64,000 bases of DNA from Pedobacter segetis (lineage in GTDB: Bacteria > Bacteroidota > Bacteroidia > Sphingobacteriales > Sphingobacteriaceae). Under the pieces are notes generated by a model, which was given only the letters and a program-made list of their open reading frames with translations, was not told the origin of the DNA and ran no database searches. The stretch covers positions 124,001-188,000 of the forward strand of contig NZ_JAEHFY010000004.1 of assembly GCF_016623585.1 (NCBI RefSeq). Reading direction: 5' to 3'. Below are positions 31,347 through 52,443 of this stretch, piece by piece (the stretch's first letter is position 1; each line of letters begins with the position of its first letter). A program made the position numbers and the translations under genes.

Positions 31347-31359
31347 TTATTGAGCTGTT

Positions 31360-36763: not shown

Positions 36764-37411
36764 TTAAAAAATATCTTTCCATAAAGAAACTATAAAAGAA
36801 AGGTATAAAAAATGCCTTAAAGATAACCTTAACCTGCCTAAGGCTTTTCTCATGTGCTGCTCTACGGTGTTTTCAGAGATGTTTAAAACCTTTGAAATTT
36901 CTTTATTAGATAAATTTTTCTTCCTGCTTAGTAGAAACACTTTTTTACATTTTTCTGGTAATAGATCAATAGCTTTCTCTATCTGCTTCTCAAGATCTTG
37001 GGTCTCTATCCTCTCTATCAAAGAATTATCCTCAGCTTTTCCGTTTACAGAAATATAAGCTTCATATTTTTGGTGTACTGCCTGTTTTCTATAATAGTTG
37101 AGGATTTGGTTTTTTAAGATCACATATAAAAACGCGAACACAGAGGTTTTATCTTCTAAAGAGTTTTTATGCTGATAAAACTTTAAAAACGAATTTTGCA
37201 CAAGCTCTTCGGCATCATCTCTACTTGGCGTTTTATTAACTGCAATAGCCATCAATTTTAAAACATACCGCTTGTAAAGTTCAGAAAATGCGTTTTCATT
37301 ACCGCTTTTCCAAAGCAATACAAGTTCATCGTCTTTATGGTTTTCTAAGATTTCTATAACAAGTTTAATTATTGGTGTGATAAATATGAGGTTTATTAAA
37401 CTAAAAATCAA
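36764..37411 (-). CDS. ECF-type RNA polymerase sigma factor
   Basis: 215 residues. Region 2 is 'NAFSELYKRYVLKLMAIAVN' and 'DDAEELVQNSFLKFYQH', and region 4 is 'LLPEKCKKVFLLSRKKNLSN' with 'KEISKVLNISENTVEQHMRKALGRL'. It is the type found beside FecR/SusC in Bacteroidota. The listed start is a TTG (37411); the first 20 residues are hydrophobic and not part of the domain, so initiation may lie further in, at a codon I cannot choose. It is divergent from the glycoside hydrolase gene and is probably the partner of the FecR protein at 40635, with three genes in between. Confidence 0.88.
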   Translation of the reverse strand: MIFSLINLIFITPIIKLVIEILENHKDDELVLLWKSGNENAFSELYKRYVLKLMAIAVNKTPSRDDAEELVQNSFLKFYQHKNSLEDKTSVFAFLYVILKNQILNYYRKQAVHQKYEAYISVNGKAEDNSLIERIETQDLEKQIEKAIDLLPEKCKKVFLLSRKKNLSNKEISKVLNISENTVEQHMRKALGRLRLSLRHFLYLSFIVSLWKDIF

Positions 37412-37881
37412 ATAGAAGTTAGTAAATCAACCATTCATAAAAGCCAAATTAAACAAAACAAATTTTCATTTTGCTTAAAAAATTTACTGATGATGGTAAT
37501 TTTTTAGGTTTTTTAAATTTTTGCTTTTTGTGAACAAACCTATAATTGGACAACTGAACGGCCATTAAACCTGCACTAATTATCCCTAAAAAAATAACCC
37601 GCAACATCAATTATCGATGCGAAACCTGTATAATGATGAAACACAAGATAACGGTTAGGGAAGAGTTGTTTGTTATATAAATGAACGCGATACTAAACAT
37701 AGCTAATTAAGCATCGCAACTAACCAATTCATAAAAAACATATTTGTCTTTTTCATGCTAACGAAAACCGTTTTCAAATGCTGTTTTTATTGTTTCAGGT
37801 TACCGATCAAAACGTAAGGTGTTTTTCTGGTTTATCATCACATTTAAAAACATGGTTATTAAAATTTAAAAATTGTATAAG
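37412..37881. other. Divergent intergenic region with a palindrome
   Basis: About 470 bases without a gene separate the divergent sigma gene and the glycoside hydrolase gene. A 13-base palindrome with perfect 6-base arms, 'gaaaaccgttttc' (37763-37775), lies about 105 bases upstream of the hydrolase start and resembles operators of sugar-responsive regulators. No clear TAnnTTTG box could be identified. Confidence 0.4.
37763..37775. promoter_or_regulatory. Possible operator palindrome upstream of the hydrolase gene
   Basis: Arms 'gaaaac' and 'gttttc' are separated by a single base. Such symmetrical AT-rich arms are common in LacI-type operators. No LacI-family gene is present in the window, so the assignment is weak. 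Confidence 0.25.
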
Positions 37882-39357
37882 ATGTACAACAAAAAAATCA
37901 AATCTATTATTACCCTGATCTCTTTAGTAGGGTTGGCAAGTTGCTCTCGTGATAAAACAGGTGCGCCAGCAAAGCCCACAGATCCCGTAATCAATGCCGA
38001 AAAGCAAAATCTTGTTCTAAATTCTGAAGATTACAAACAAGAGTTTCTGGGAGGTGGGGTCTCTATTGGCCTTTTCTTGGGGCATCATTACAGCATGAGC
38101 GCTACCGCACAAGACCAAGCTGTAAGATTGATCGCCAAAGATTGTAATATGCAATACCTGCAAGATTATATTGAGATATACCCGGCCGATGACCCTGAGT
38201 ATTTTGACAGAAGGGCCAACTATATTAAAGCGGCCAAGGCTTATCAGCCCGATTTAAAGTTTTCTTTAGTAGGCAACAAATTCCCGGCAGATCTGATGCA
38301 TGACATTGTGGTAAATGGAGAAACCTTGCAAGCCCTTAACACAGACGACCCTGCCATATATGATAAAGTAGCGAATTGGTGGTATAAAATGACCGAAGGC
38401 TTTTACCAACGTGGTGTGGCAACGGATATTTTAAATGTAGTTAACGAGCCAGATCTAGATAGAACTTTTAGAAAAAACCATTATGGATTGGCTGGCGACA
38501 CTAAAGAAGCCGTTGCCCGTGTTTTTAAATATGCTGTGCCAAAATATAAAGCCATGCTGGCAAACCCGTCCATTAGTACCTTAAATATGAAAACCCCTTT
38601 AATTATGGGGCCAAGTACCATCTCTCCAGTAGGATGTTTGGATTATATCCAGTATTTCAAAACCAACCACCCCGATGTTTGGAAAGGTATAGACATTGTA
38701 TCAACCCATCAGTATGAAAATGGTGGCCGGCCAGAATTGTTCCAAACCATTATGAGCCAAGCAGATGGCAAGCCCATTTACCAATCAGAAACACACGCCT
38801 TAATGGGCGATGCCTTAAATTTTAATGGGGTTTTTATCAGCAAGGCACTTAATGCGGCATTATCTTTATCCAATCTATTTTGTACGGCGGTAAACAATGG
38901 CGTAAGTTCTTGGTGGTATTTTGAAACCAATTACCCTAACGTAGAGGTGCATCCCGGAGGGCTTTTAAGCATCCCTTGGGCGGCGCAAGAGCCAATTCCG
39001 TACAAGCATTATTATGCTTTTAAACAACTTACATCGGCCCAACCGGCATCTTCCAATGTGATCGGTTATGTTTTAGAGAACAAACCAAATACCCAGGTCA
39101 TAGCTTTTAGAAAGAAAAACCAGAACGTTATCTATGCCGATTATTCTAATTACAACACCAAACCTATGAATGTTTCTATAACGGTTAAGGGTACAAACGG
39201 CAACCGCAAAATAGCGGGTTATACATTAACCACCACCAGCGAACTGGATAATGGCGCATTGCTAAAAGATACTACTTTTGCAAGCCCACAAGATGCTGCC
39301 GTAATTTTTACCAAAAACCTATCGCTCAATACCATAAAACTAAACTTGGCCAATTAA
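37882..39357 (+). CDS. Secreted lipoprotein glycoside hydrolase, clan-A type (GH30-like)
   Basis: 491 residues from the ATG at 37882; a TTG three codons upstream is less likely. Signal: 'SIITLISLVGLASC' with the lipobox Cys at residue 21, so it is a lipoprotein, probably surface-exposed. The barrel pattern includes 'FLGGGVSIGLFLG', 'NVVNEPDLD' with Glu189, the likely acid/base, and 'PIYQSETHAL' with Glu303, the likely nucleophile. A C-terminal beta domain ('QVIAFRKKNQNVIYADYSNY') fits GH30 proteins. The subfamily and substrate are not clear. It is the first gene of the polysaccharide-utilisation locus and ends in a strong terminator, so it is probably a transcription unit of its own. Confidence 0.7.
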   Translation: MYNKKIKSIITLISLVGLASCSRDKTGAPAKPTDPVINAEKQNLVLNSEDYKQEFLGGGVSIGLFLGHHYSMSATAQDQAVRLIAKDCNMQYLQDYIEIYPADDPEYFDRRANYIKAAKAYQPDLKFSLVGNKFPADLMHDIVVNGETLQALNTDDPAIYDKVANWWYKMTEGFYQRGVATDILNVVNEPDLDRTFRKNHYGLAGDTKEAVARVFKYAVPKYKAMLANPSISTLNMKTPLIMGPSTISPVGCLDYIQYFKTNHPDVWKGIDIVSTHQYENGGRPELFQTIMSQADGKPIYQSETHALMGDALNFNGVFISKALNAALSLSNLFCTAVNNGVSSWWYFETNYPNVEVHPGGLLSIPWAAQEPIPYKHYYAFKQLTSAQPASSNVIGYVLENKPNTQVIAFRKKNQNVIYADYSNYNTKPMNVSITVKGTNGNRKIAGYTLTTTSELDNGALLKDTTFASPQDAAVIFTKNLSLNTIKLNLAN

Positions 39358-39375
39358 AGGCTTTGATCCTTAATT

Positions 39376-39416
39376 CCCTGTCTTTAAACCAGCAAATGAT
39401 AAAGACAGGGTTTTTT
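39376..39416 (+). terminator. Rho-independent terminator after the glycoside hydrolase gene
   Basis: An 11-base perfect stem, 'ccctgtcttta' (39376-39386) and 'taaagacaggg' (39400-39410), with a 13-base loop, is followed by six T residues (39411-39416). Confidence 0.9.
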
Positions 39417-39436
39417 CTTAAAAAATAAATCTATTT

Positions 39437-40387
39437 ATGAGAAAGCTCTATATACTTATAATCCTTATTATTTTTTGCTTAAAAACCCATGGGCAACAAC
39501 TTTATAGCACTACCTATTTAAAATTTAACAATATAGAAGTTGACTCTGCTAATCTGGCCGATTATACCAGATATATTTACTACACAGATTCTACTAAAAA
39601 AAAGGTCAAAATTATAGAGAAATACAAAAATGGAAACCTCAAACAAACAGGAGAAGTTTCTGAGGCATCGCTACCTTTTCCAAATTATATTGGTGTAGTT
39701 AATAATTACTATGATGATGGGACATTAAAATCTGAACTGACCTATTACCGGGGCTCTCTCAAGGGGCCAGCCACTTACTATGCAAAAAATGGCAGTGTAT
39801 TATCCAAAGGCGAATATGTTAACCACTATACAAAATCTTACTTTAAAGCACATCAGCTTTATAACACTAAAAATGAAAACATTTTAGACCAGTATGGTAA
39901 CGGAATATTATATACCGAACAAAATTTTACTACCTACCACGGAGCATATAAAAATGGTTTTAAGGATGGAAAGTGGAAAATTGTAGATAAAAGGTATAAA
40001 AATGAGTATGATGAGGTTTACAAAAACGGGAAACTTAAAGGCGGTAGCTGCACCGATGTAAATGGTAATAAAAGAACCTATGATTACATTCAAACCTATC
40101 CTTATTTCGATGGGGCGCAAAATATGAAAGACTTTGGAGAAAACAGCTGGGAACCTATAAGTGTTATCATGAAATCTAATGATTTAGAGGGTGCTGTTGC
40201 TTACAGCTTTGATATTGACAAGTATGGGAGGCTAAGTAATTTTAAGCTGCTAAAATCACTTTCAGAATATAGTGATAAAAAAGCTTTAGACTATATTAAA
40301 CGTCAAAAGTGGCATCCCGCTAGTTACATGGGTATAACCACAGAAACTCATGGGTTTATATTTACCATTAGTTATAGGGCAGATTAA
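39437..40387 (+). CDS. Secreted MORN/YwqK-like protein with a TonB-C-like domain
   Basis: 316 residues. The signal peptide is 'LYILIILIIFCLKTHG'. Residues about 60-180 contain repeats of the YwqK/MORN type: 'YKNGNLKQTGE', 'YYDDGTLKSELTYYRG', 'GPATYYAKNGSVLSKGEYV' and 'GAYKNGFKDGKWKI'. The last 90 residues contain 'VAYSFDIDKYGRLSNFKLLK' and 'ALDYIKRQKWHPASY', which match the C-terminal domain of TonB-type energy transducers. No TonB proline-rich linker or membrane anchor is seen. It lies between the hydrolase gene and fecR. Role is unknown. Confidence 0.7.
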   Translation: MRKLYILIILIIFCLKTHGQQLYSTTYLKFNNIEVDSANLADYTRYIYYTDSTKKKVKIIEKYKNGNLKQTGEVSEASLPFPNYIGVVNNYYDDGTLKSELTYYRGSLKGPATYYAKNGSVLSKGEYVNHYTKSYFKAHQLYNTKNENILDQYGNGILYTEQNFTTYHGAYKNGFKDGKWKIVDKRYKNEYDEVYKNGKLKGGSCTDVNGNKRTYDYIQTYPYFDGAQNMKDFGENSWEPISVIMKSNDLEGAVAYSFDIDKYGRLSNFKLLKSLSEYSDKKALDYIKRQKWHPASYMGITTETHGFIFTISYRAD

Positions 40388-40634
40388 TGTTTTTTATCCG
40401 CAAAGCCTATCAAGCCTTAATAAAATCTAATCATAATCAATTAATTATTTTAGATATGGAACATTAGAAATCCTTTAGCTTAGGGGATGGGGCGGCTAAT
40501 TTTTTAAGAAATTTTAAAATTTCCAATAAAAAATAAAATTGGAGTAACGGTTTTGTCTTTTAAGATTGTCTTACTTTTAGAGACGCTCAATTTCTTATTA
40601 AAGGGCCTCCTAAACCAATTATCAAAACAAGAAA
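40388..40634. other. Gap upstream of fecR with a perfect AT palindrome
   Basis: The 247 bases contain a perfect 16-base palindrome, 'gaaattttaaaatttc' (40508-40523), and the stretch 'ggagtaacggttttgtcttt' followed by 'taagattgtcttac'. Sequences like these are often seen upstream of FecR/SusC units in Bacteroidota, so an ECF-type promoter may lie here, but this is a suggestion only. Confidence 0.3.
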
Positions 40635-41786
40635 ATGCAAAAAGAATATCTAAGCCATCTTTTAGATTTATATAGTAAAGGAGAATTGTCTAAAGAGCAA
40701 GCAGAAGATCTGGATAATTGGTTCCACTCCTTAGATTATGCCCATACCAATATCGATGCTATCATTAAAGAAGCCGGCAGCAAGAGTAATTTGATCAATC
40801 AGCTTTATCAAGATTTTGAAAACTATCATCACCAAAAAAGAGCTAACGTTTTTAGCCTTAGAAATATTTCTATTGCCGCTAGCGTTTTAATAGCCATTTC
40901 TTTTGGGATATATTTTTACGCCATAAACAAAACCCCAATAATTGCCAAAAAAGAACTGGCAAAGATCCAACCTCAAATCATAAAACCGGGGGGCAACAAG
41001 GCAATCCTTACCCTATCTAACGGAAAGCAAATTGATTTAGATGATCAGGTTAAAGGAGAGCTTATCCAACAAAAAGGGATAAAAATCACCAAAACAAAAG
41101 ATGGCCAGTTATTGTATCAAACGGTTGCCTCAAACTCTGCGGAAGATATAGGTACAAATACCATATACACTCCTAGAGGAGGACAGTACCAAGTTATTTT
41201 AGAAGATGGCACACACGTTTGGTTAAATGCCGCTTCAACCTTAAAATATCCTACAAAATTTACGGGCAACAAAAGGGAAGTAGAGTTAAGTGGCGAAGCT
41301 TATTTTGAAGTTGCGCATAATGCCAATGCCCCGTTTAGGGTTAAAACCAAAGATCAAACCTTAACTGTTTTGGGCACCCATTTTAATGTAAACAGCTATG
41401 ATGATGAAGATTTTGTTAAAACCACCTTATTGCAAGGTAGCGTAAAAGTGGTAAGCGTTAAAAACAATCAATCTAAAATGTTAACGCCAGGGCAGCAGTC
41501 GGTGTTAGAAAACAACCAATTAAATGTAAAGTTAGCCGATGTTAAAAACGTTATTGCCTGGAAAAACGGGTATTTTAGGTTTAACGATGAAGATATTCAC
41601 GTTATCATGAACCAAATTGCCAGATGGTACGATGTTGATATAGCCTACAATGGGAACTTTAACGATATGCGTTTTGGGGGATACATATCTAGAGATAAAA
41701 GCATTAATGAAATTCTCAATTTAATGCAAGTAACAAAAAGTATCAGATTTAATATAGAAGGGAGGAAGGTTATTGTCATGAAATAA
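40635..41786 (+). CDS. FecR-type anti-sigma factor
   Basis: 383 residues. The N-terminal 75 residues are cytosolic and should bind the sigma factor. A membrane helix follows ('ISIAASVLIAISFGIYFYAI', about residues 78-97). The FecR domain contains 'TPRGGQYQVILEDGTHVWLN' and 'VLGTHFNVNSY'. A C-terminal DUF4974-type domain ('FRFNDEDIHVIMNQIARWYD') ends the protein. It senses SusC occupancy through the latter's STN domain and frees the sigma factor. It is followed by a hairpin and susC. Its sigma partner is probably 36764-37411, unusually distant. Confidence 0.92.
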   Translation: MQKEYLSHLLDLYSKGELSKEQAEDLDNWFHSLDYAHTNIDAIIKEAGSKSNLINQLYQDFENYHHQKRANVFSLRNISIAASVLIAISFGIYFYAINKTPIIAKKELAKIQPQIIKPGGNKAILTLSNGKQIDLDDQVKGELIQQKGIKITKTKDGQLLYQTVASNSAEDIGTNTIYTPRGGQYQVILEDGTHVWLNAASTLKYPTKFTGNKREVELSGEAYFEVAHNANAPFRVKTKDQTLTVLGTHFNVNSYDDEDFVKTTLLQGSVKVVSVKNNQSKMLTPGQQSVLENNQLNVKLADVKNVIAWKNGYFRFNDEDIHVIMNQIARWYDVDIAYNGNFNDMRFGGYISRDKSINEILNLMQVTKSIRFNIEGRKVIVMK

Positions 41787-41829
41787 AATTACCAAGAATT
41801 TTAAAATGACAATAAATCAGGGACGCTAC

Positions 41830-41871
41830 CAACGCCCCCGATTTTAGCCTTAAAGGCGTTGTCAGGTTTTT
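41830..41871 (+). terminator. Terminator or attenuator hairpin between fecR and susC
   Basis: 'caacgcc' (41830-41836) pairs with 'ggcgttg' (41855-41861), followed by 'tcagg' and a run of five T residues (41867-41871). It may reduce readthrough from fecR into susC, so that susC depends mainly on its own promoter. Confidence 0.5.
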
Positions 41872-41903
41872 AATCTATTCACCAATTAATCCTAACTAAT
41901 CAA

Positions 41904-44900
41904 ATGTATAAAAATTATTTTGCAAGTAAGTGCGATACTGTTTGTCGTGACCTAACCAAATTGTTTCTCGCTATGAAATTGATAGCCGTTTTAATGTTTG
42001 TTAGCATTTTACAAGTCAGCGCTAATTCATACGCACAAAACGTTAACCTAAACGTCAAAAACGCTTCTTTAAAAGAAGTTTTCCGATTATTGACAGACCA
42101 AACCGAATACGAGTTTATTTATAACTCATCTATGCTGCAAAACACTAATAAAATAAGTATTGTAGCTAAAAATGAACCATTTTTAAACGTACTCAAAAAG
42201 TGTTTTTTAGATCAACCCGTTAGTTTCTTGATAAAAAACAACACCATTGTTATTACCAAACCAGAACAAGGCTTGGCCGTTAATGATAAAGTTGTACAAA
42301 ACACCATCAGCGGTACGGTAATCTCTTCTGACGATGGAAAACCATTGCCCGGTGTTTCTGTAAAGGTAAAAGGCGTAAATAAAAATGCCATTACTGATAT
42401 TAACGGTAATTTTAAGATTGAAGCAGATATAAACCAAACATTGGTTTTTAGCTATGTAGGTTTTGAAAATCAAGAGGTGCTGATAAAAAGCCTAGACCCA
42501 ATTAAAGTTTCTCTAAAAGTATCTGTAAAATCTTTATCAGATGTGGTTGTAATAGGCTACGGTACCCGTAAAAAAGAAGATTTATCTGGAGCGGTAACCC
42601 AAGTAACCGCAAAAGAAATAACCAAACAGCCCGTAACCTCGTTTGATCAGGCTTTGCAAGGTTTAGTGCCAGGCGTAACCATAAGAGAAGGTACTGGTGC
42701 ACCGGGTGCTGGCCCAGAAATATTGGTAAGGGGGATCAACACCTTTGGTAATAATAAACCATTGATCGTAATAGATGACGTGATCTATGAAGGTTACAAC
42801 GATCAAAACAATAATCCCTTAGCTTTATTGAACCCCGAAGATATTGAAAGTATTTCTGTACTTAAAGATGCGGCAAGTAAATCTATTTATGGTTCTAGGG
42901 CTACCGCAGGTGTTATTCTGGTAACCACTAAAAAAGGGATGATTGGCAAACCTAAAATAAATTACTCATTTAGTGGTGGTTTTTCTAATTACATGAAATT
43001 TGAAAAACCCAAGGTTTTAAACGCTACTGAATTGGCACAATTTAGAAGAGAAGCAACAATCGATAGGATCCGTTTTACTAACCCTGCCTATGCAGACCCA
43101 AATACAACCGTACCAGAATCTCTTATCCCCACAGAGTTCCAAAACCCATCGCAATATGGCGTAGGTACAGATTGGTTTGATGAAGTAACCAGAACGGCTT
43201 ATCAACAAAACCAAAACTTGAGCGTAAACGGAGGTACAGAAAACGTGAAATATTACGTAAGCGGGAACTATCTAAACCAAGATGGTATCGTTATAGGTAA
43301 CGATATCAAAAGGTACTCTTTTCGCTCTAACGTAGATTTTAAGATTTCCCCAAAATGGAATTTCGGTTTAAACGTTGCACCATCCAGAACCTTGGCCAAC
43401 CGCCCAGCAGATGACCCTAGCGCTGGCCAGTTTAGTGCTTATTCTACCATTACTTCTACCTATTGGATAAGTCCAGAGGCAAAAGTAAAAGACGCAAACG
43501 GTAATTTTGTATATACCACTCAATCTCCGCTTTTGGTAAGCTGGACGGCTAACCCCGTTTATCAAATAGAAGCAGAAACAGAAAAAAGATTGAACAATCA
43601 ATTGGCATTTGGTTCTTATCTAGAATTTAAGCCCATTAAAAATTTAAGCTTTAAAACAAAAATATCTTATAGTAACAACCTTAGTAGAACAGAAGCTTTC
43701 TCACCTAGTACGGTTGCTGGCGATGGTTTAAACCCAACGGTACCACGCTTAATAGGTGCTACGGCAGCTCAATTCTCCCAAGATTTTAGCAATATCATTA
43801 GCGATAACTTGGTTACTTACAGCTTTAATAAAAATAAGCACCAATTAGATTTATTGGGAGGTTTAACTTATCAGGATACCAAGTTAACTGTAACTTCAAT
43901 AAATGCCCAACGCCTGTTAGACGAGAATTTAACGCAACCTTCTTTCAGTAACGTAGATAAATCTACCGTTGGTAATTTCTCTGGGGGCGAATCATTCGGA
44001 GAAAACAACATCATTTCTTATATCTCAAGGGCCAATTATATCTATAACAACAGATATTATGTAAATGCTACGGCCAGATATGATATATCTTCAAAATTTG
44101 GTAGAAATGTGCAAGGTGGTTTTTTCCCGGCAGCTTCGGTAGCTTGGAGGGCAACGGAAGAAGAATTTGTTAAAAACCTAAATATAAAATGGTTAAATGA
44201 TTTAAGGTTTGAAGTTGGTTACGGGATTACCGGAAGTACCCAGGGTAACGGCATCGGAAATTATAGTTATTTAGGTTCTGTAGGGCAGTCTAACTATATT
44301 TTTGGAGGCGTATCTACTTTAGGGAATACCCTTACAGGCTTACCAAACCCCGATCTAACATGGGAAGAAAGTAAACAACTAGATTTGGGCATAAATGCTG
44401 ATCTATTGAAAGGTAGGGTTAGTTTGGCCTTCAATATGTACAAACAAAATACATCGGGTTTATTGGCTTCTGTACCTTTACCATTAATTACAGGTTTTGG
44501 TGGTGTTGGGGGTAATTTAGGCGAAGTTCAAAACAAAGGTTTTGAAGCAGATATTCAGGCTATACCTGTAAAAACAAAGAACTTTAGTTGGACAACCGGC
44601 CTAAACTTCTCTAGGTACAAAAATAAGATCATCAGCTTACCTAACGGAACATTTTATAGTGCAAATGCGGGTAATGGTACCCAAATAGCAAAATCAGAAG
44701 TGGGGCAACCTGTTGGGATGTATATTGGCTTAAAAGTATTGGGCTTATTTACCGCAGCAGATATTGCAGACCCCAATGTACCTAAATATCCTGGTGCGGC
44801 AGTGGGTACAATCAAATACCTAGACGGAAACGGAAATGGGAAGTTGGAGGTAGCGGCAGACTACGTAACCTTGGCAAACCCACACCCAGATTTGATGTTC

Positions 44901-45392
44901 GGTTGGAACAACCAGTTCAACTATAAAAAGTTTAACCTCAGGACTATTTTCGCAGGGCAATTAGGTGGTGCTATTTATGATCTTCGTAAAGAAATCATGT
45001 ATAATTTAGATGGTAACTTTAACGTAAGCAGGGATGTTTTAGAAAGATACAGGCCCGGTGATGATCCAAGCACTAAGAAATATGCCACTAGCGCTACTGC
45101 TACCAATTATTTCAGGTTTCCGAATAGCCAAAAAGTATTTGATGGCACTTACATAGCTTTAAAGAACTTAACCTTTGGTTATGATATAACAACCCTAACT
45201 AATTTCAAAAAGAAAATATTAGATAAGGCAGAAGTCTTTGTTAGCGCAAGAAACGTGTTTTATATTGCCGCCTACAAAGAGGGCAACCCAGAGATCAGAA
45301 GATCTAACGATGGTAGTGCGGTTAGGAGCGTAAACTATGGTAGTTACCCTATCTCTACAACTTTCTTATTTGGCCTAAATGTTTCCTTTTAA
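41904..45392 (+). CDS. susC: SusC/RagA-family TonB-linked outer membrane transporter
   Basis: 1162 residues. After a signal segment (about residues 20-45) is an STN domain (46-118: 'NASLKEVFRLLTDQTEYEFI'), which contacts FecR. A carboxypeptidase-D-like domain follows (134-205: 'ISGTVISSDDGKPLPGVSV'), then the plug ('SDVVVIGYGTRKKEDLSGAV' to 'SRATAGVILVTTKKG', about 212-345), and a long beta-barrel ending 'STTFLFGLNVSF', whose final Phe is the usual assembly signal. It imports oligosaccharides across the outer membrane using TonB energy with the SusD partner. The presence of STN marks this as a sigma/FecR-regulated system. Confidence 0.95.
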   Translation: MYKNYFASKCDTVCRDLTKLFLAMKLIAVLMFVSILQVSANSYAQNVNLNVKNASLKEVFRLLTDQTEYEFIYNSSMLQNTNKISIVAKNEPFLNVLKKCFLDQPVSFLIKNNTIVITKPEQGLAVNDKVVQNTISGTVISSDDGKPLPGVSVKVKGVNKNAITDINGNFKIEADINQTLVFSYVGFENQEVLIKSLDPIKVSLKVSVKSLSDVVVIGYGTRKKEDLSGAVTQVTAKEITKQPVTSFDQALQGLVPGVTIREGTGAPGAGPEILVRGINTFGNNKPLIVIDDVIYEGYNDQNNNPLALLNPEDIESISVLKDAASKSIYGSRATAGVILVTTKKGMIGKPKINYSFSGGFSNYMKFEKPKVLNATELAQFRREATIDRIRFTNPAYADPNTTVPESLIPTEFQNPSQYGVGTDWFDEVTRTAYQQNQNLSVNGGTENVKYYVSGNYLNQDGIVIGNDIKRYSFRSNVDFKISPKWNFGLNVAPSRTLANRPADDPSAGQFSAYSTITSTYWISPEAKVKDANGNFVYTTQSPLLVSWTANPVYQIEAETEKRLNNQLAFGSYLEFKPIKNLSFKTKISYSNNLSRTEAFSPSTVAGDGLNPTVPRLIGATAAQFSQDFSNIISDNLVTYSFNKNKHQLDLLGGLTYQDTKLTVTSINAQRLLDENLTQPSFSNVDKSTVGNFSGGESFGENNIISYISRANYIYNNRYYVNATARYDISSKFGRNVQGGFFPAASVAWRATEEEFVKNLNIKWLNDLRFEVGYGITGSTQGNGIGNYSYLGSVGQSNYIFGGVSTLGNTLTGLPNPDLTWEESKQLDLGINADLLKGRVSLAFNMYKQNTSGLLASVPLPLITGFGGVGGNLGEVQNKGFEADIQAIPVKTKNFSWTTGLNFSRYKNKIISLPNGTFYSANAGNGTQIAKSEVGQPVGMYIGLKVLGLFTAADIADPNVPKYPGAAVGTIKYLDGNGNGKLEVAADYVTLANPHPDLMFGWNNQFNYKKFNLRTIFAGQLGGAIYDLRKEIMYNLDGNFNVSRDVLERYRPGDDPSTKKYATSATATNYFRFPNSQKVFDGTYIALKNLTFGYDITTLTNFKKKILDKAEVFVSARNVFYIAAYKEGNPEIRRSNDGSAVRSVNYGSYPISTTFLFGLNVSF

Positions 45393-45402
45393 ATTTAAAA
45401 CA

Positions 45403-46881
45403 ATGAAAACAAAACATATTTTCACAAGTATATTTTTTGTAATGATAGGCCTTAGTGCTTGCAAAAAAGAAAAAACATATCTAGATCCAACAAACAATTA
45501 TTCTTATTACAACTTTCCAGAAAACGAAGACCAGGTAAACCAGGCCGTAGTGGCCATCTATACCCAAGCTAGGTCTTTATATAATGCAGATTTATGGCAA
45601 TTTGGGGAGTTTAGGAGCGATAATACTTCTTTTAGATACAACCCAAACGATAGGGGAGGTTTAAATACAGAGCAACTAGATGAATTTACCGCTCTTTCTG
45701 ATAATGGTAGCATTAACGCCATGTGGGCAGATAGCTACAACGGAATAGCCAAAGCAAATTATGCCCTACAAAATTTGGATGCCATTACTTTTAGAGATCC
45801 GGCGGTTAAAACCCAAAGACAATCAGAAGCTAAGTTTTGGAGGGCTTGGTTCTACTTTAATTTAGTAAGGCTGTATGGTGATGTGCCTTTAGTAACTAAA
45901 GTGGTGATATCCCCATCAGAAGGCCCAACCTACCAAAGAGAGGCAACCAGTAAAATTTATTCTGATCTGATCATTCCGGATGCTATGGCGGCAGTAAGTG
46001 GCCTACCCCCTACCATTGGAACTAGCGATAAAGGTAGGTTGAGCAAAGGTGCTGGCTTGATGCTTTTGGCAGAAGTTTACATGACTTTGAAACGCTTTGA
46101 CGATGCAAATACTACTTTACAACAATTAACCACGCTTGGTTATTCTTTAGATGCAAATTACGCAGACAACTTTGATCCCACCAAAAAGAATGGGCCCGAG
46201 TCAATCTTAGAGATGCAATCTGATGCCACCCAAGGTATAACTTTCGGTTTTTATGGCGCATGGACTCCATACGCAACAGGAGCTAATATTTATCCTGGAG
46301 GATCAAACTCTAGAGGTGGTTTAAACCAACCCACAAAAGACTTGATCAATAGCTATGAGACTGGCGACAAAAGAAAAGCAGTTACCGTAGGTACTTATAA
46401 CAATATAGATTACCTTAAAAAGTTTCTGTATTGGGATGCTTCAACTAGAGCTAATCCTGTAAATTTTGTTACTTATAGGTATGCAGATGCTTTATTGATG
46501 TATGCAGAAAGCCTAAATGAAATATCTTTTCCAAATGCCCAAGCTTTTTCAATGCTCAATCAAGTAAGAACAAGGGCTGGTTTACCTAATAAAACACAGG
46601 CAAATATTATCCCTGCTCTCGCAATAAATTCTCAAGCAGATTTTAGATTGGCAATAGAAAAAGAAAGAAGGGTTGAGTTGGCAGGAGAAAACCACCGTTG
46701 GTTTGATCTTTTAAGAACAGGCCGGGCAGTTGCCGTGATGACGGCCCATGGTGCCCAAGAAAAAGCCTTGAAACCTACCACAATTGGTTCAGGAGCTTAT
46801 GATAACATCAGAACATTATTAGCGATACCTTTTAGGCAAGCGCAACAATACGGGTATGCGCAAAACCCTGGTTGGGAATAA
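45403..46881 (+). CDS. susD: SusD/RagB-family glycan-binding lipoprotein
   Basis: 492 residues from the ATG at 45403, eleven bases after susC; an ATG at 45379 overlaps susC and leaves no signal. Signal 'HIFTSIFFVMIGLSAC' with lipobox Cys20. TPR-like helices and the family endings 'FWRAWFYFNLVRLYGDVPLV', 'YRYADALLMYAESLNEISFP' and 'AIEKERRVELAGENHRWFDL' with 'LLRTGRAV' are all present. It is the surface lid that binds the glycan over SusC. It ends at a terminator, so the enzyme genes downstream are probably expressed separately or by readthrough. Confidence 0.94.
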   Translation: MKTKHIFTSIFFVMIGLSACKKEKTYLDPTNNYSYYNFPENEDQVNQAVVAIYTQARSLYNADLWQFGEFRSDNTSFRYNPNDRGGLNTEQLDEFTALSDNGSINAMWADSYNGIAKANYALQNLDAITFRDPAVKTQRQSEAKFWRAWFYFNLVRLYGDVPLVTKVVISPSEGPTYQREATSKIYSDLIIPDAMAAVSGLPPTIGTSDKGRLSKGAGLMLLAEVYMTLKRFDDANTTLQQLTTLGYSLDANYADNFDPTKKNGPESILEMQSDATQGITFGFYGAWTPYATGANIYPGGSNSRGGLNQPTKDLINSYETGDKRKAVTVGTYNNIDYLKKFLYWDASTRANPVNFVTYRYADALLMYAESLNEISFPNAQAFSMLNQVRTRAGLPNKTQANIIPALAINSQADFRLAIEKERRVELAGENHRWFDLLRTGRAVAVMTAHGAQEKALKPTTIGSGAYDNIRTLLAIPFRQAQQYGYAQNPGWE

Positions 46882-46906
46882 AAAACTTGGTTTAAGTTGG
46901 TTAGAA

Positions 46907-46938
46907 TTGGTTGGGAGGTAATCCCAGCCAGTTTTTTT
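46907..46938 (+). terminator. Rho-independent terminator after susD
   Basis: 'ttggttggga' (46907-46916) pairs with 'tcccagccag' (46922-46931) around a five-base loop, with two wobble pairs, followed by seven T residues (46932-46938). Confidence 0.8.
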
Positions 46939-46970
46939 GTTATTCCAAAAATCTATCATCTCTATCTAAT

Positions 46971-49310
46971 ATGAAATTTAAACACTTTCAATATATATTC
47001 TTCCTGATATTCTTACTAGGGGCAACACAAATTGTTGAAGCACAACCCGCTATAAAAACAAATTGGAAAGCCAACTGGATAACATACGAAAAAACCAATA
47101 CCAAAAAGAACAGCTGGACGATTTATCGGAAATCTTTTATTTTAGATGAAAAACCCAAAAATTCGGCTTTAGCCGATATTGCTACAGACAGCAAATATTG
47201 GCTTTACATAAACAATAAACTTGTTGTTTTTGAGGGCGAATTAAAAAGAGGCCCAACGCCAAAGGATACTTACTATGATGAAGTGGAGATTGGGAAATAT
47301 CTGCAAAAAGGCAAAAACACTATTGCTATTTTGGTTTGGTTTTGGGGTCAGGATGGGTTTTGCCACAAGGATAGCGGTAAATCGGGTTTGCTATTTGAAG
47401 CCGATTTAGGAAACCAATTTTTAATGAGCGATACCACCTGGAAAGTTGCAGAGCATACCGCTTTTGGAGCAAGCAAAGCTCCATTCCCCAATTATCGTTT
47501 GCCGGAATTTAATATTCATTTTGATGCAAAAACAGATATTCCAAATTGGTATCAAACAGATTTTGATGATACCAAACTTGAAAATGCAACCTTAGCAGGT
47601 AAAGCAGGTGTAGCACCATGGAACCAATTATGGAAAAGACCCATCCCCTTATGGAAAGATAGCGGCATTATTCCTTATGAAAATAACAATTCCTGGCCTT
47701 TGGAAAGTACCGGAGACAGCATCGCGATGAAGCTGCCCAAAAACATCACCGTAACCCCTTATCTTAAAATTGATGCCCCCGCCGGATTATTGATTGATAT
47801 ACGAACAGACAATTACAAAGGTGGCAGCGAATACAACGTGAGGACGGAATATGTAACCAAAGCTGGTGTGCAGGAATTTGAAACCCCGGGTTATATGAAC
47901 GGACATGTGGTTTATTACCACATCCCAAAAGGGGTTAAAATCTTAGACCTTCAATATCGGGAAACGCGATATAACAGTGAATACGTTGGTTATTTTAATT
48001 CGGATAATAAGGATTTAAATACGCTCTGGGAAAAATCTTTAAACACCATGAACGTGAATTTGCGGGATGCTATACAAGACCCCGACAGGGAAAGGGCGCA
48101 ATGGTGGGGCGATGCCGTGATTATTCTGGGAGAGATTTTTTACAGTGCCGATAGCAATGGGGTAAAAGCCATACAAAAAGCTATCAGTAACCTGGTAGAA
48201 TGGCAAAAAAAAGATAGCGTGTTGTTTTCTCCGGTTCCTTCTGGTAAGTGGGATAAAGAACTGCCTGCCCAAATGCTGGCTTCGGTGGGTAAATATGGTT
48301 TCTATAAATATTTTGAATACACCAACGATAGCACTTTGGTAAAATATGTTTATCCGCATGTGCGGGATTATATGAGCCTTTGGAAGATGGATGAAAATAA
48401 TTTGGTGATACACCGCAAAGGCGGCTGGGACTGGCAGGATTGGGGAGATAAAATTGATGCTCCATTACTCGAAAACGCCTGGTATTACATGGCTTTAGAT
48501 GGCGCAGCTGGAATGGCAGATGTTGCGGGGTTTCCTTCAGAAGCTGCTGCTTACCGTAAAAAAATGGCTCTTCTGAAGGCCGCATTTAATAAAAGTTTCT
48601 GGCAGGGGCAATATTATAAAAGCGATGACTACACCTTTACCATGGATGACCGCGGGAATGGTTTAGCCGTGGTAGCAGGTTTAGCCGATGAAAAGCAATG
48701 GAAAGCCATGCGACCTATTTTAGATACCACTTTTAACAGCGGGCCTTATTTAGAAAAATATGTATTGGAGGCCTATTTTAAAATGAACAATGCCGAAGCC
48801 GGTACAGCAAGAATGTTAAAAAGGTACGATGCCATGATTAAAAGCCCAATTACCACATTATGGGAAGGCTGGCAAATTGGAAGCGGCACTTATGGCGGAG
48901 GAACCTATAACCATGGCTGGAGCGGCGGACCGCTTACGCTAATGAGCCAATACATTACAGGGTTAACACCTGACGGGCCGGGCTATCAAAACATCAACGT
49001 TTTCCCCGAACCGGGCAATTTAAAACAGGCAAAAATGGGGACTGAAACCGTTGCAGGATACATGAAAACAGCCTTTGAAAAAGATGAAAATCAGTTTCAG
49101 CTTTTTTTGGAGTTGCCAAAAGACAAAAACGTAAGATTGGGAATTCCAAAGTTTAAGCATCCCTATAAAAAGATAAAACTGAACGGAAAAACCATTTGGA
49201 AAAAGGGAAAGGCCATTAAAAATCAGGAGGCGGTTTTTGAATATGAATCTGAAAACTATATTGTTTTTGATGCACCAAGTGGAAACTTAACGGTACAGGC
49301 TAAATTTTGA
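46971..49310 (+). CDS. GH78-like alpha-L-rhamnosidase
   Basis: 779 residues from the ATG at 46971; an upstream ATG at 46911 lies within the susD terminator and can be discarded. Signal peptide 'YIFFLIFLLGATQIVEAQ'. Two N-terminal beta domains precede the (alpha/alpha)6 barrel. The GH78 signature 'DAIQDPDRERAQWWGD' (residues 366-381) holds the acidic catalytic residues, and 'TTLWEGWQIGSG' contains the second Glu. 'YNHGWSGGPLTLMSQYI' is also standard. It removes terminal alpha-linked L-rhamnose from the glycan, probably in the periplasm. The first Cys-free signal suggests a soluble secreted or periplasmic protein. Confidence 0.87.
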   Translation: MKFKHFQYIFFLIFLLGATQIVEAQPAIKTNWKANWITYEKTNTKKNSWTIYRKSFILDEKPKNSALADIATDSKYWLYINNKLVVFEGELKRGPTPKDTYYDEVEIGKYLQKGKNTIAILVWFWGQDGFCHKDSGKSGLLFEADLGNQFLMSDTTWKVAEHTAFGASKAPFPNYRLPEFNIHFDAKTDIPNWYQTDFDDTKLENATLAGKAGVAPWNQLWKRPIPLWKDSGIIPYENNNSWPLESTGDSIAMKLPKNITVTPYLKIDAPAGLLIDIRTDNYKGGSEYNVRTEYVTKAGVQEFETPGYMNGHVVYYHIPKGVKILDLQYRETRYNSEYVGYFNSDNKDLNTLWEKSLNTMNVNLRDAIQDPDRERAQWWGDAVIILGEIFYSADSNGVKAIQKAISNLVEWQKKDSVLFSPVPSGKWDKELPAQMLASVGKYGFYKYFEYTNDSTLVKYVYPHVRDYMSLWKMDENNLVIHRKGGWDWQDWGDKIDAPLLENAWYYMALDGAAGMADVAGFPSEAAAYRKKMALLKAAFNKSFWQGQYYKSDDYTFTMDDRGNGLAVVAGLADEKQWKAMRPILDTTFNSGPYLEKYVLEAYFKMNNAEAGTARMLKRYDAMIKSPITTLWEGWQIGSGTYGGGTYNHGWSGGPLTLMSQYITGLTPDGPGYQNINVFPEPGNLKQAKMGTETVAGYMKTAFEKDENQFQLFLELPKDKNVRLGIPKFKHPYKKIKLNGKTIWKKGKAIKNQEAVFEYESENYIVFDAPSGNLTVQAKF

Positions 49311-49314
49311 ATCG

Positions 49315-49446
49315 ATGAAGAGCGGAAAAATAAAGATTGGCTTGTTTGGGATTGGTTTAGATAATTATTGCTCTCCATTTAAAGTTTGGCAATGTTTAAT
49401 TATTGCATCATTAAAATCAAGCTCTCCAAATTCTTTAAGAAACTAA
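49315..49446 (+). pseudogene. Remnant of an L-arabinose/L-fucose-isomerase-like gene
   Basis: A 43-codon frame starts at ATG 49315 and ends at 49446. It reads 'MKSGKIKIGLFGIGLDNY', a strong match to the first strand of L-arabinose/L-fucose isomerase-family proteins, then loses the expected pattern. Shifting by one base near 49386 continues with 'GLAMFNYCIIKIKLSKFF', again plausible. It lies between the rhamnosidase and the GH43-like gene, so it may be the leftover of an intact sugar-catabolic gene. I regard it as a decayed 5' fragment. Confidence 0.5.
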
Positions 49447-49495
49447 CCTTTCTATCAGGCATGAATAAATCAGAATTTGTTAATCAACCTTTAAA

Positions 49496-50920
49496 ATGAA
49501 GAAAATTTTAACGCAATTACTTTTAGCTGTGTCATTTATTACGGGTGCATTCGCTCAGCAGAAAATAGAAGTAAATAATGAGCATCCCAGGACAGACACC
49601 CAGGGAAATATTGTGGATGCCCACGATGGCCGGGTGGTGCAATTTGGCGATACTTTTTACTGGTACGGCACCCATTATGGCGATACCAACGGTTTTGTAC
49701 ATACCAATAAATATGTGGTTTACAGCTCTAAAAACCTTAAAACCTGGAAATTTGAGGGAGATTTATTCCAATCCGCTCCCGAAGGGGTTTACTACCGCCC
49801 GCATGTAATTTATAATAAAAAAACCCATCAATATGTGATGTGGTACAATTGGTACCCAAAACTCTGGAACGGACAGTTTGGTGTAGCCGTCAGTAATTCG
49901 CCAACAGGGCCTTTCAACATCATTAATGAAAATGCAAAAGTTAAACACAGCGATTTGGGCGTAGGCGATTTGGGTCTGTTTGTTGATGACAACCAAAAAG
50001 CCTATTTAAGCTACAATACCATCAATGGCCATAGTGTTTCTGTGGAAGAATTAGATGATGATTATACAGCAAGCAAGCTCATTGGCAGCGAGTTTATAGC
50101 CAAAGATTGTGAAGCCGGGAGCATGTTTAAGCGGGATGGAATTTACTACCTGCTCACAGATTATACCTGCTGCTTTTGTACCCAGGGTTCCGGAGCGAGG
50201 GTTTATATTGCAAAAAATCCTCTGGGGCCTTATACTTTAAGCAATAACATTAACCGTTATCCGGGAGAATATGCTGCCCTACTGAACGATGGCTTTGCCA
50301 AAGACAATCAGTACATCAACCTCACACAAAAAAGTAATGAAATAGAGCTTGAATTAAATGATTTTGAAAACATTTCTTCCTTACAAATCCACCAGTTTAC
50401 AGGCGATAGAAAAGGACAATGTGGCGAAGTGGGTAACCCAAAAGTGCATGACCCCATTTTAGATTACGGTTTTGAAATCAGCTATTTTGAGGATGGCGTT
50501 TGGAAAAAGTTAATTATCCGCCAAAAGGAAATTTTAAAGACGGCGCTATCCAATACCTATCAGTTGAGTTTCGATGGGATAAAAACAGATAAAATCAGCA
50601 TCAAACCCATTTTTAAAAATGAGGCAGAAGTATTTCATCTTTCAGAAATCAGCATCAATCAAAACTCAAAAAACTTCCGGGCATATATCAAAAATAATAA
50701 TGGCAAACCCATCATTCCGGCACAGCAAGCCTACGTAATGCGGGTTGAAACCAAAAAAGGGCCTCAATTTATTTGGATGGGAGATTTATGGGGTTCCGCT
50801 CTGGATAATGTAAAAGGACACGACTTTCAATACTGGTCGGCACCTTTAACTTTTTATAAAAATGGCTGGATAAAACCTTTAGAATATACCAATCAATGGA
50901 AATTAAAAATAAGCAAATGA
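49496..50920 (+). CDS. GH43-like enzyme (subfamily 24/34 type)
   Basis: 474 residues. The signal peptide is 'ILTQLLLAVSFITGAFAQ'. The five-bladed propeller starts 'DAHDGRVVQFGDTFYWYGTH', where GH43 enzymes normally have a catalytic Asp base; this position reads Ala-His-Asp-Gly, as in the GH43_24/34 exo-galactosidase subgroups that use another base. The likely acid is Glu in 'CEAGSMFKRDGIYYLLT', and 'DLGVGDLGLFVDDNQKAYL' supplies the pKa-modulating Asp. About 170 C-terminal residues form a beta-rich extension. Its stop overlaps the sulfatase start as ATGA. Substrate: possibly a galactan-type side chain; inferred. Confidence 0.75.
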   Translation: MKKILTQLLLAVSFITGAFAQQKIEVNNEHPRTDTQGNIVDAHDGRVVQFGDTFYWYGTHYGDTNGFVHTNKYVVYSSKNLKTWKFEGDLFQSAPEGVYYRPHVIYNKKTHQYVMWYNWYPKLWNGQFGVAVSNSPTGPFNIINENAKVKHSDLGVGDLGLFVDDNQKAYLSYNTINGHSVSVEELDDDYTASKLIGSEFIAKDCEAGSMFKRDGIYYLLTDYTCCFCTQGSGARVYIAKNPLGPYTLSNNINRYPGEYAALLNDGFAKDNQYINLTQKSNEIELELNDFENISSLQIHQFTGDRKGQCGEVGNPKVHDPILDYGFEISYFEDGVWKKLIIRQKEILKTALSNTYQLSFDGIKTDKISIKPIFKNEAEVFHLSEISINQNSKNFRAYIKNNNGKPIIPAQQAYVMRVETKKGPQFIWMGDLWGSALDNVKGHDFQYWSAPLTFYKNGWIKPLEYTNQWKLKISK

Positions 50921-52350
50921 AAAATTTAAAAAATGCGCTCATCGCTTTCGCAGTTGTACTGATATCATGTAACAGCGCAAAAAAAGTTGTCAATACCAAT
51001 ACTTCAAATGAAAAACCGCTGAATATTGTATTGATAGTTGCAGATGATTTAGGCTGGGCCGATTTAGGTTGTTATGGCAATAAATTTATGGAAACCCCGA
51101 ATTTGGATGCGCTGGCTAAAAAAGGAATCAGATTTACCAATGGTTATGCCGCTGCCCCGCTTTGCAGCCCTACCCGGGCAAGTATTATTACCGGAAATAA
51201 CCCTGCCCGTATCAATTTTACCGAACATTTGCATGGGTATAGCAAACCAACGCCTCAGCAAAAATTAATACCGCCAACCATTGTGAAGGGTTTGCCTACA
51301 GATTTGCTGACTCTTCCGCAAGCTTTAAACAAAGCAGGATATTATACCGGGCATATCGGGAAATGGCATTTGGGTGAAGGCGAATCTTCGCCAGCCGCCC
51401 GGGGCTTTGATTTTGTATATGGTGGAGGCCCGCAGGGATTGGCAAAAACGCATTTCTATCCTTTCTTTTGGGGAAACCCCTATCCATCTTTGATAAATGA
51501 TACCAAACCCGGGGATTACCTTGCGGATGCCCTGACCAACAGAGCTTTAAAATTTTTGGATGAACATAAAGCGAATAAGTTTTTTGTGGAGCTAAACTTT
51601 TATTCCCCACATGTGCCTATAGAGGGCCCAAAAAACCTGGTTAAAAAATATGATGACAAGCGAGTGAAAACCAATCATCAGGGTTTACCCGAGGATGAAT
51701 ACGCCGCCATGGTAGATAATCTGGATTATAATGTTGGGCGGTTGCTTAGCTATTTAAAAGAAAATAATCTGGATAAAAATACCATCATTCTTTTTACCTC
51801 TGATAATGGAGGCTTAACGGTAGAAGAAGTTCCGGCGTTTGCCAAACATACACCACCTACTACAAACGCACCATTGAAAGGCGGTAAGGGTACTATTTAC
51901 GAAGGAGGAATCAGAGAACCTTACATTCTTTATCATCCTGAAATGAAAGTCGAAAATCATGTGGATAGTACCACCCTCATTACCTCGGATGATATTTTTG
52001 ATACGTTTATGGATATTGCCGGCGTGAAGACAAAAAGTCCTGATGGGATGAGTATTTTGAAAAATATGGCTCAGCATAATCCAAACCGGCCTTATTATTT
52101 ACATTTTCCGCATTACAGTCCACAACACGGTTGGCCGGGAGATGCCATCAGGGTTGGTGATTATAAGCTGATTGTTTGGTATGAGACCGGAAAATCAGAA
52201 TTGTTTAATTTAAGAACAGACATCGGCGAAAGCCATGATATTGCTGCAAAATACCCTGAAAAGGTAGCTGAACTTAAAAAGAAGTTAGATGCTTGGAAAA
52301 AGGATGTTGGTGCTAAAGAGCCTACGGCAAATCCTATCTATCAACCGTAA
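50917..52350 (+). CDS. Sulfatase lipoprotein (formylglycine type)
   Basis: 477 residues from the ATG at 50917; the ATG at 50896 is upstream in frame but leaves a weaker signal. 'LIAFAVVLISC' with Cys18 is a lipobox. The metal site 'VADDLGWADLGCYG' (Asp43, Asp44) and the sulfatase signature 'PLCSPTRASIITG' (Cys83 in C-x-P-x-R, modified to formylglycine by an anaerobic or FGE-type maturase) are intact. 'GHIGKWHLGEG' and 'LFTSDNGG' provide further ligands. It hydrolyses sulfate esters on the imported glycan. It is translationally coupled to the GH43-like gene and ends in a terminator. Confidence 0.92.
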   Translation: MKNLKNALIAFAVVLISCNSAKKVVNTNTSNEKPLNIVLIVADDLGWADLGCYGNKFMETPNLDALAKKGIRFTNGYAAAPLCSPTRASIITGNNPARINFTEHLHGYSKPTPQQKLIPPTIVKGLPTDLLTLPQALNKAGYYTGHIGKWHLGEGESSPAARGFDFVYGGGPQGLAKTHFYPFFWGNPYPSLINDTKPGDYLADALTNRALKFLDEHKANKFFVELNFYSPHVPIEGPKNLVKKYDDKRVKTNHQGLPEDEYAAMVDNLDYNVGRLLSYLKENNLDKNTIILFTSDNGGLTVEEVPAFAKHTPPTTNAPLKGGKGTIYEGGIREPYILYHPEMKVENHVDSTTLITSDDIFDTFMDIAGVKTKSPDGMSILKNMAQHNPNRPYYLHFPHYSPQHGWPGDAIRVGDYKLIVWYETGKSELFNLRTDIGESHDIAAKYPEKVAELKKKLDAWKKDVGAKEPTANPIYQP

Positions 52351-52362
52351 AAATTAGCTTTT

Positions 52363-52416
52363 AAACCGGGTAGAATTGAACCTTTGTAAATTTCAATTCT
52401 ACTCGGTTTAATTTTT
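52363..52416 (+). terminator. Rho-independent terminator after the sulfatase gene
   Basis: 'aaaccgggtagaattga' (52363-52379) pairs with 'tcaattctactcggttt' (52393-52409), with one mismatch-like wobble, followed by 'aattttt'. It closes the polysaccharide-utilisation locus. Confidence 0.85.
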
Positions 52417-52443
52417 CAAACTGTTTTCAAAATTCGAGACATC

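Follow-up and report, generated by a model that had tools for sequence, protein, structure and literature searches.

The window analysed here is a 64,000-nucleotide stretch of Pedobacter segetis DNA (positions 124001-188000 of contig C44 in genome G000, which is 3.84 Mb and 99.84% complete), and it contains a complete Sus-type polysaccharide-utilization locus (PUL) at 36764-52350, with both ends inside the window. A gene for an extracytoplasmic-function (ECF) sigma factor on the minus strand is followed by genes that all lie on the plus strand and encode, in order, a GH30-like lipoprotein, a MORN/TonB_C protein, FecR, SusC, SusD, a GH78 rhamnosidase, a GH43 enzyme, and an S1 sulfatase (Table 1). 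All are open reading frames (ORFs), with overlaps of 14 bases between the SusC and SusD genes and 25 bases between the GH43 and sulfatase genes, and the adjacent susC/susD pair together with carbohydrate-active enzymes is the gene content of a Sus-type PUL. A first-pass annotation had placed a PUL with a rhamnosidase, a GH43-like enzyme, a GH30-like lipoprotein, and a sulfatase at 36764-52420. Every gene that it named was found by Pfam, NCBIfam, and PDB matches, and its start holds, whereas its end lies 70 bases beyond the sulfatase stop at 52350. Its remark that no second sulfatase or lyase is present is correct for the ten proteins that were compared with Pfam; the rest of the genome contains another 26 PF00884 matches, one of them short.

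The same four enzymes stand together, accompanied by SusC and SusD, in two genomes of the family of Galbibacter mesophilus, G1003 (locus L099) and G816 (L100), where they span ~10 kb and ~7 kb, respectively. Identities to the window proteins are 64-65% for the GH30-like protein, 52-53% for the GH43 enzyme (over 475-477 columns, its insertion included), 48-49% for the sulfatase, and 45-46% for the GH78 enzyme. SusC and SusD relatives in both clusters are 37-43% identical, and the G816 cluster adds relatives of FecR and the ECF sigma factor; the MORN/TonB_C protein, encoded between the GH30-like and FecR genes in the window, has no counterpart among the listed ORFs of at least 150 amino acids in the two clusters. 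The window cluster is not a chance grouping, since all four enzymes are also found together in G1003 and G816. It shares a four-enzyme set across two bacterial families, and this comparative result is what is new. Just upstream of the G1003 cluster are conjugative transposon tra genes (TraG P-loop, TraM, and DUF4138, which we take to be TraN-type; L099 1-5025 and L106 18784-20000), and the patchy spread of the set and these neighbours would fit transfer by a putative conjugative element, although plasmid records contain no relative of the GH30-like protein.

Relatives of single components are more widespread. SusD relatives at 1e-60 were present in 82 of 301 genomes of the window's family, its own included, and we fetched 10 hand-picked regions that contain them. 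Six of these encode a GH43 enzyme 35-38% identical to the window's, four of the six with a full SusC/D, and at 1e-5 these six gave no match to the GH30-like protein, the sulfatase, or the GH78 enzyme. In the remaining four, SusC/D occurs without such a GH43, and one of them (L089) has a weak GH78 match (22%). We therefore rejected the SusD-relative regions as instances of the same PUL and regard them as related loci for other glycans. Searches with the GH43 enzyme itself gave matches in 146 of the 301 genomes at 1e-10, the best outside the window's own genome being 41% identical over residues 9-251 only. Eight fetched regions, which were our own choice, have a GH43 with 35% identity or more to the window enzyme, and five of them (L083, L084, L086, L092, and L099) encode an arabinose/fucose-type isomerase, either the G1003 isomerase itself or one 51-53% identical to it, a recurrence that would fit a pentose or deoxy-sugar product.

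Table 1. Genes of the locus, with positions in the window and the matches that identify them
Feature	Positions	Strand	Evidence and remarks
ECF sigma factor	36764..37411	-	TIGR02985 150.9 bits (cut-off 126.4), PF08281, PF04542; divergent from operon
GH30-like lipoprotein	37873..39357	+	Lipobox LASC (by eye); PDB match 9ywn, predicted fold
MORN_2 / TonB_C protein, signal sequence (by eye)	39437..40387	+	PF03544 3.2e-7; PF07661 3.3e-4, under cut-off
FecR anti-sigma factor	40635..41786	+	PF04773 2.1e-20, PF16344 4.4e-19
SusC/RagA TonB-dependent transporter, N-terminal STN signalling domain	41904..45392	+	TIGR04056 795 bits, PF07660 1.1e-8, PF07715 1.1e-23
SusD-like glycan-binding lipoprotein	45379..46881	+	PF07980 2.9e-29, PF14322 1.3e-19
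GH78-type alpha-L-rhamnosidase	46911..49310	+	PF17389 8.6e-26, PF17390 6.2e-9; likely true start ATG 46971, before signal sequence (by eye)
GH43 enzyme	49496..50920	+	PF04616 1.2e-14
S1 sulfatase, lipoprotein-like start (by eye)	50896..52350	+	PF00884 2.3e-60

Catalytic residues of the rhamnosidase, GH43 enzyme, and sulfatase

The GH78 enzyme has both the six-hairpin catalytic domain (PF17389) and the C-terminal domain (PF17390), and its best PDB match is RhaB (2okx, 5.9e-39). Four acidic residues of RhaB, presumably numbered D567, E572, D579, and E841, have aligned counterparts in the window enzyme and are kept in the orthologs from G1003 and G816.

For the GH43 enzyme, the nearest PDB structures include GH43_24 exo-beta-1,3-galactanases, which first suggested that activity. 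GH43_24 enzymes are without an Asp base and use Gln263 instead, and their Glu102 and Trp229 touch the terminal galactose (PMC7939473). The window enzyme has the canonical triad, with Asp44 as the base (49625-49627) and Asp158, the pKa modulator, and Glu206, the acid, in the remaining columns. Asp44 stands where GH43_24-type genes have Gly and aligns with an Asp in five of nine other GH43 genes of the same genome; there is a Tyr at the Glu102 column and no Trp at the 229 column, and the equivalent of Gln263 is kept, aligned after an insertion. The G1003 enzyme likewise has the Asp base, Tyr at Glu102, no Trp at 229, and the acid Glu, and the residues of the G816 enzyme agree. Because the Asp base is present and the Glu that recognizes galactose is absent, and with Trp229 missing too, we ruled out a GH43_24 exo-beta-1,3-galactanase; judged by its residues, the protein is a canonical-triad enzyme near, but outside, GH43_24. 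The insertion covers approximately residues 253-408 (~50252-50719), is present in the G1003 and G816 enzymes, and is absent from 10 other GH43 proteins aligned. A single-sequence model of the GH43 enzyme had a pLDDT of 38 and was not used as evidence, and a discoidin-like look of the insertion is an impression only.

The sulfatase has the S1_16 enzyme AMOR_S1_16A as its best PDB match (9fo1, 1.7e-102). Its formylglycine Cys90 (51163-51165) lies in a C-x-P-x-R motif that reads CSPTR, and the calcium ligands DD and DN are present. We compared it by hand with AMOR_S1_16A, taking the motif, the calcium ligands, and the other residues from PMC11760155. The two proteins are alike in Cys58, the ligands Asp18-Asp19 and Asp263-Asn264, Lys287, His201, His125, Glu270, and Gln370, and the window sulfatase differs in having His for Trp79, Leu for His149, and Pro for Asn369. 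His occupies the Trp79 column in the window sulfatase and in all five sulfatases aligned. In sulfatases acting on 4-sulfated galactose or N-acetylgalactosamine, losing this Trp abolishes activity, and it occurs in only 37% of S1_16 proteins (PMC10154612), so its absence does not decide the subfamily. The sulfatase is thus, by alignment, nearest to S1_16 and without the Trp tied to 4-sulfo-galactose specificity. Since specificity is linked to a Trp that most S1_16 proteins do not have, we do not predict a sulfate position for the window enzyme; an S1_16 sulfatase in one PUL is described as having unknown activity (PMC8857213).

The GH30-like lipoprotein and its relatives

Neither Pfam (E up to 1) nor NCBIfam (0.01) has a model that matches the GH30-like lipoprotein, and of four members of its family scanned, the window's included, one gave a weak GH59 match (0.0029). 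A phmmer search of the PDB matched it to 9ywn, a GH30-type enzyme named glucuronoarabinoxylan xylanase, at 6.5e-10, and a four-member profile matched 9ywn at 1.3e-13 over most of its length and then the GH30 enzyme 7n6h at 8.6e-5. An AlphaFold model built from three sequences was of middling quality (pLDDT 64, with 165 residues below 50) and has the TIM barrel and side beta-domain of GH30 enzymes. Foldseek and VIA-align also assigned this predicted fold to GH30, with a top Z of 20.5 and an rmsd of 6.9 over 344 residues to XynC (3kl3) at ~15% identity; the 50 matches listed were mostly GH30 xylanases, glucanases, and acid-beta-glucosidase, row 16 being titled GH5 and row 44 an unnamed exported protein. 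The predicted catalytic residues are Glu192 in NEPD (38446-38448) and Glu306 in QSE (38788-38790), which align with the NEPD and QTE of 9ywn. By alignment, strand placement aside, both are kept in all seven GH30-like proteins compared, the window's included, although the G942 protein has NEKG in place of NEPD. The window protein thus resembles the GH30 enzymes XynC, AcXbh30A (7n6h), and 9ywn in its predicted-model fold and two catalytic Glu residues, and differs from them in its ~15% structural identity, its want of a Pfam match, its rarity, and its genomic setting.

The idea that the GH30-like protein is common was dropped after counts in several collections. Among 301 genomes of the window's family, matches came from its own genome and, weakly, from one other; among 395 genomes of its class, from its own genome only (these samples share genomes, and the rarity searches used different queries and cut-offs). 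The family of Galbibacter mesophilus, whose genome G682 carries locus L017, had matches in 4 of 349 genomes, genome_contigs yielded two loci, found by two peptide patterns only, and plasmid records held no relative. Seven relatives were compared: the window copy, a second copy on contig C13 of the same genome, and those at L016, L017, L099, L100, and L101; a match in G233 (30%, residues 118-436) was left out as probably another GH30. In a tree of the seven, with one inner branch lacking resolution and the G942 protein on a long branch, the window copy groups with those of G1003 and G816 (98/98 support), and the C13 paralog lies far from it, at 33% identity.

GH43 and sulfatase genes accompany the GH30-like gene in six of the seven loci (the window, C13, L017, L099, L100, and L101), and a LacZ-type GH2 gene in five (L017, L099, L100, L101, and C13, where it is a fragment at the contig end, 38% identical over 299 residues). 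At L016, in a Chitinophagaceae metagenome-assembled genome, ORFs within 10 kb on each side had no match to the cluster's other proteins; this comparison was made with the cluster proteins rather than with Pfam. C13 and L017 each have one GH43 gene with the GH43_24 pattern (AHGGG, ERPK) and a second that departs from it, and the L101 GH43 is GH43_24-type by the first motif and by 56% identity to the C13 gene. This context of GH43, sulfatase, GH2, and GH43_24-type genes suggests that the family as a whole may serve sulfated, beta-galactose-bearing glycans. It is possible, if doubtful, that the window protein belongs to a new GH30 subfamily or clan GH-A family whose members are surface endo-hydrolases acting on sulfated galactans that bear rhamnose, and that it travels in a mobile four-enzyme cassette.

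The C13 cluster is itself large. Positions 14000-82937 of that contig (L012-L015) hold eight sulfatase matches, the two GH43 genes, GH2-type genes, a GH115 gene, two susC/susD-like pairs (by look), and the second GH30-like gene; it is probably a separate sulfated-galactan locus.

Sugar pathways and the probable target glycan

Genes for two sugar pathways adjoin the orthologous clusters, of which a part of the ORFs was run through the family library. The G1003 cluster adds a GH16 gene, two LacZ-type GH2 genes, an esterase-type gene, the arabinose/fucose-type isomerase gene, a second rhamnosidase gene, and two sulfatase genes, and it encodes RhaT (504.5 bits, over the cut-off), RhaD-ADH (952 bits to TIGR02632, over the cut-off), and a RhaI-like isomerase (498 bits to TIGR02629, below the cut-off). 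The G816 cluster adds a LacZ-type GH2, a second sulfatase, and a second rhamnosidase-type gene; beside its FecR and sigma factor genes are those for a sodium/solute symporter, an aldose (galactose-1-)epimerase-like protein, AraA, AraD, and AraB, and on its other side is a dehydratase-like gene. Rhamnose and arabinose pathways are thus both linked to the four-enzyme set, in different genomes. In the window's own genome, contig C72 carries in one run the genes for RhaT (533 bits, over the cut-off) and RhaD-ADH (955 bits to TIGR02632, over the cut-off) together with a RhaI-like isomerase gene, a weakly matching rhamnulokinase-like gene, and lactate-oxidation-type genes, and it has a second rhamnosidase-family match.

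We favour, with reasonable confidence, a Sus-type locus whose target is a sulfated, L-rhamnose-containing heteroglycan, probably with beta-linked galactose and/or arabinose and most likely from algae. A sulfated rhamnose-containing glycan is likely, and galactose and arabinose are plausible constituents. The sulfated target proposed in the first-pass annotation is now very probable, and the rhamnose that it proposed is backed by RhaT, RhaI-like, and RhaD-ADH genes in one orthologous cluster and by the rhamnose-type operon of the same genome. The sequence shows which genes are present, their catalytic residues, the conservation of the four enzymes as a set, and the genes of rhamnose type; the order of cuts given below, their location, and the substrate and linkages involved are inferred. 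SusD and SusC would capture and import glycan pieces, and ligand sensing and activation of the operon would fall to the SusC STN domain together with FecR and the ECF sigma factor. The first cut, outside the cell or at the outer membrane, may be made by the GH30-like lipoprotein; sulfate would be taken off by the S1 sulfatase, the GH78 enzyme would free rhamnose, and the GH43 enzyme may free another terminal sugar, whether arabinose, xylose, or galactose. Such staging of the enzymes at the surface or in the periplasm, which had also been proposed from the start, is suggested by signal sequences read by eye. Released rhamnose could then be burned by the RhaT/RhaI-like/kinase-like/RhaD-ADH operon elsewhere in the genome.

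Several observations weigh against this reading. At E 0.001 the genome has no classical RhaA (PF06134), which first put rhamnose use in doubt; it was partly restored when a RhaI-like gene was found with RhaT and RhaD-ADH on C72, where the isomerase remains under its cut-offs (407 versus 531 bits and 503 versus 647 bits) and the rhamnulokinase-like match is weak (53 versus 528 bits). With a single sulfatase and no GH2, the window cluster could scarcely degrade a multiply sulfated galactan by itself. Arabinose and rhamnose genes adjoin different orthologs, never both the same one, and orthologous PULs can differ in substrate. The tagaturonate reductase gene beside the dehydratase-like gene of G816 (NF002969, 647 bits, over the cut-off) could point to a uronic acid component, and SusC in that cluster is split into two overlapping ORFs (L109 1974-5565) and may be frameshifted, broken, or mis-sequenced.

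Of the alternatives, a PUL for a sulfated arabinogalactan protein (AGP) survives best, although we consider it unlikely. Such a glycan would be a sulfated beta-1,3/1,6-galactan capped with rhamnose and bearing arabinose as side chains, and the GH30-like protein would be an endo-beta-1,6-galactanase. The arabinose operon beside the G816 cluster and the GH2 genes in both orthologs would suit it, as would the GH43_24 structures near the window GH43 enzyme, the GH43_24-type and sulfatase genes of the paralogous GH30-like loci, and the use of sulfated AGP by Bacteroides plebeius through a sulfatase and a GH43_24 enzyme (PMC8406133). The window GH43 nevertheless fails the residue test for GH43_24 (Asp44, Tyr at Glu102, no Trp229), and the sole GH43 found in the G1003 and G816 clusters, by best blastp match among ORFs of at least 150 amino acids, is its ortholog. 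The arabinogalactan-type target named at the outset may still hold, given the arabinose operon next to one ortholog and the GH2 genes of both.

Ulvan and rhamnogalacturonan, also named then, are less well supported. As an auxiliary PUL, the locus would trim rhamnose-sulfate oligosaccharides produced by lyases encoded elsewhere; ulvan PULs do contain GH78 enzymes and sulfatases (PMC8511951), the tagaturonate reductase gene lies near the G816 cluster, and all three genomes have GH88/105 (PF07470) genes elsewhere, with 8, 3, and 6 matches in G000, G1003, and G816, respectively, one of the eight below the cut-off. None of these matches is in any of the three clusters or on C44, however, and the nearest in G1003 is ~37 kb beyond the last fetched base. 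Nor was a lyase recognized among the ten window proteins (Pfam) or the annotated ORFs of the G1003 and G816 clusters, no genome-wide lyase search having been made. These results argue against an ulvan or pectin route and make it quite improbable. A mixed or decaying PUL whose sulfatase and GH43 enzyme serve different glycans is very improbable: the orthologous clusters are larger and have GH2 and extra sulfatase genes that the window cluster lacks, but every gene of the window cluster is open and its four enzymes occur as a conserved set in G1003 and G816.

Surroundings of the locus and comparison with known systems

The cluster is bounded by a MacB-type permease gene (35398-36633) and a DUF6503 gene (52444-53178), and beyond the window, in flanks of 20 kb to the left and 19 kb to the right on C44, ORFs of at least 150 amino acids had no match to cluster proteins at 1e-5. 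G+C is 0.39-0.41 in the four enzyme genes versus 0.31-0.39 in the other genes measured, a weak difference on which we do not rely. A scan with a Bacteroidetes promoter pattern gave a single match in 35-53.5 kb, within a gene and on the other strand, and six matches in the window versus a mean of 3.8 in 50 mononucleotide shuffles. Near the PUL, two open genes (53310-54293 and 56926-57606) have no Pfam match at 0.001. Farther away, a long run of minus-strand genes at 5705-32481, with low G+C (~29-33%) up to 24 kb and glycosyltransferase and ABC-2 genes at 30483-32481, looks like a region for surface polysaccharide synthesis.

Sulfated algal heteroglycans make up a large pool of carbon that is consumed slowly, and to our knowledge few enzymes are known that open them. 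The locus offers a small, testable enzyme set, shared by genomes of two bacterial families, that includes a member of a rare GH30-like family not matched by Pfam or NCBIfam and a GH43 enzyme with an unfamiliar insertion. A literature search, from which subscription journals were mostly outside coverage, recognized no paper describing the four-enzyme set.

Three described systems come close, each in part. Formosa agariphila ulvan PUL H also combines a sulfatase with GH78 on rhamnose-sulfate oligosaccharides, but breakdown there begins with PL24/25/28/40 lyases and GH88/105 enzymes (PMC8511951), none of which was recognized in the window cluster. Arabinogalactan PUL 7 of Maribacter sp. MAR_2009_72 shares SusC/D, GH43, GH78, and one sulfatase in a single locus and differs in having GH105, GH115, and GH29; the available main text names GH30 zero times (PMC11036162). 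PUL5 and PUL13 of B. plebeius are likewise Sus-type and apply sulfatases with galactan- and rhamnose-acting enzymes to one sulfated glycan, PUL5 with GH43_24 and GH145/GH105 and PUL13 with S1_8 and S1_14 sulfatases (PMC8406133), whereas the window locus has a canonical-base GH43 with an insertion, GH78, an S1_16-like sulfatase, and the GH30-like lipoprotein. Overall, the locus is an ordinary kind of system with unusual content.

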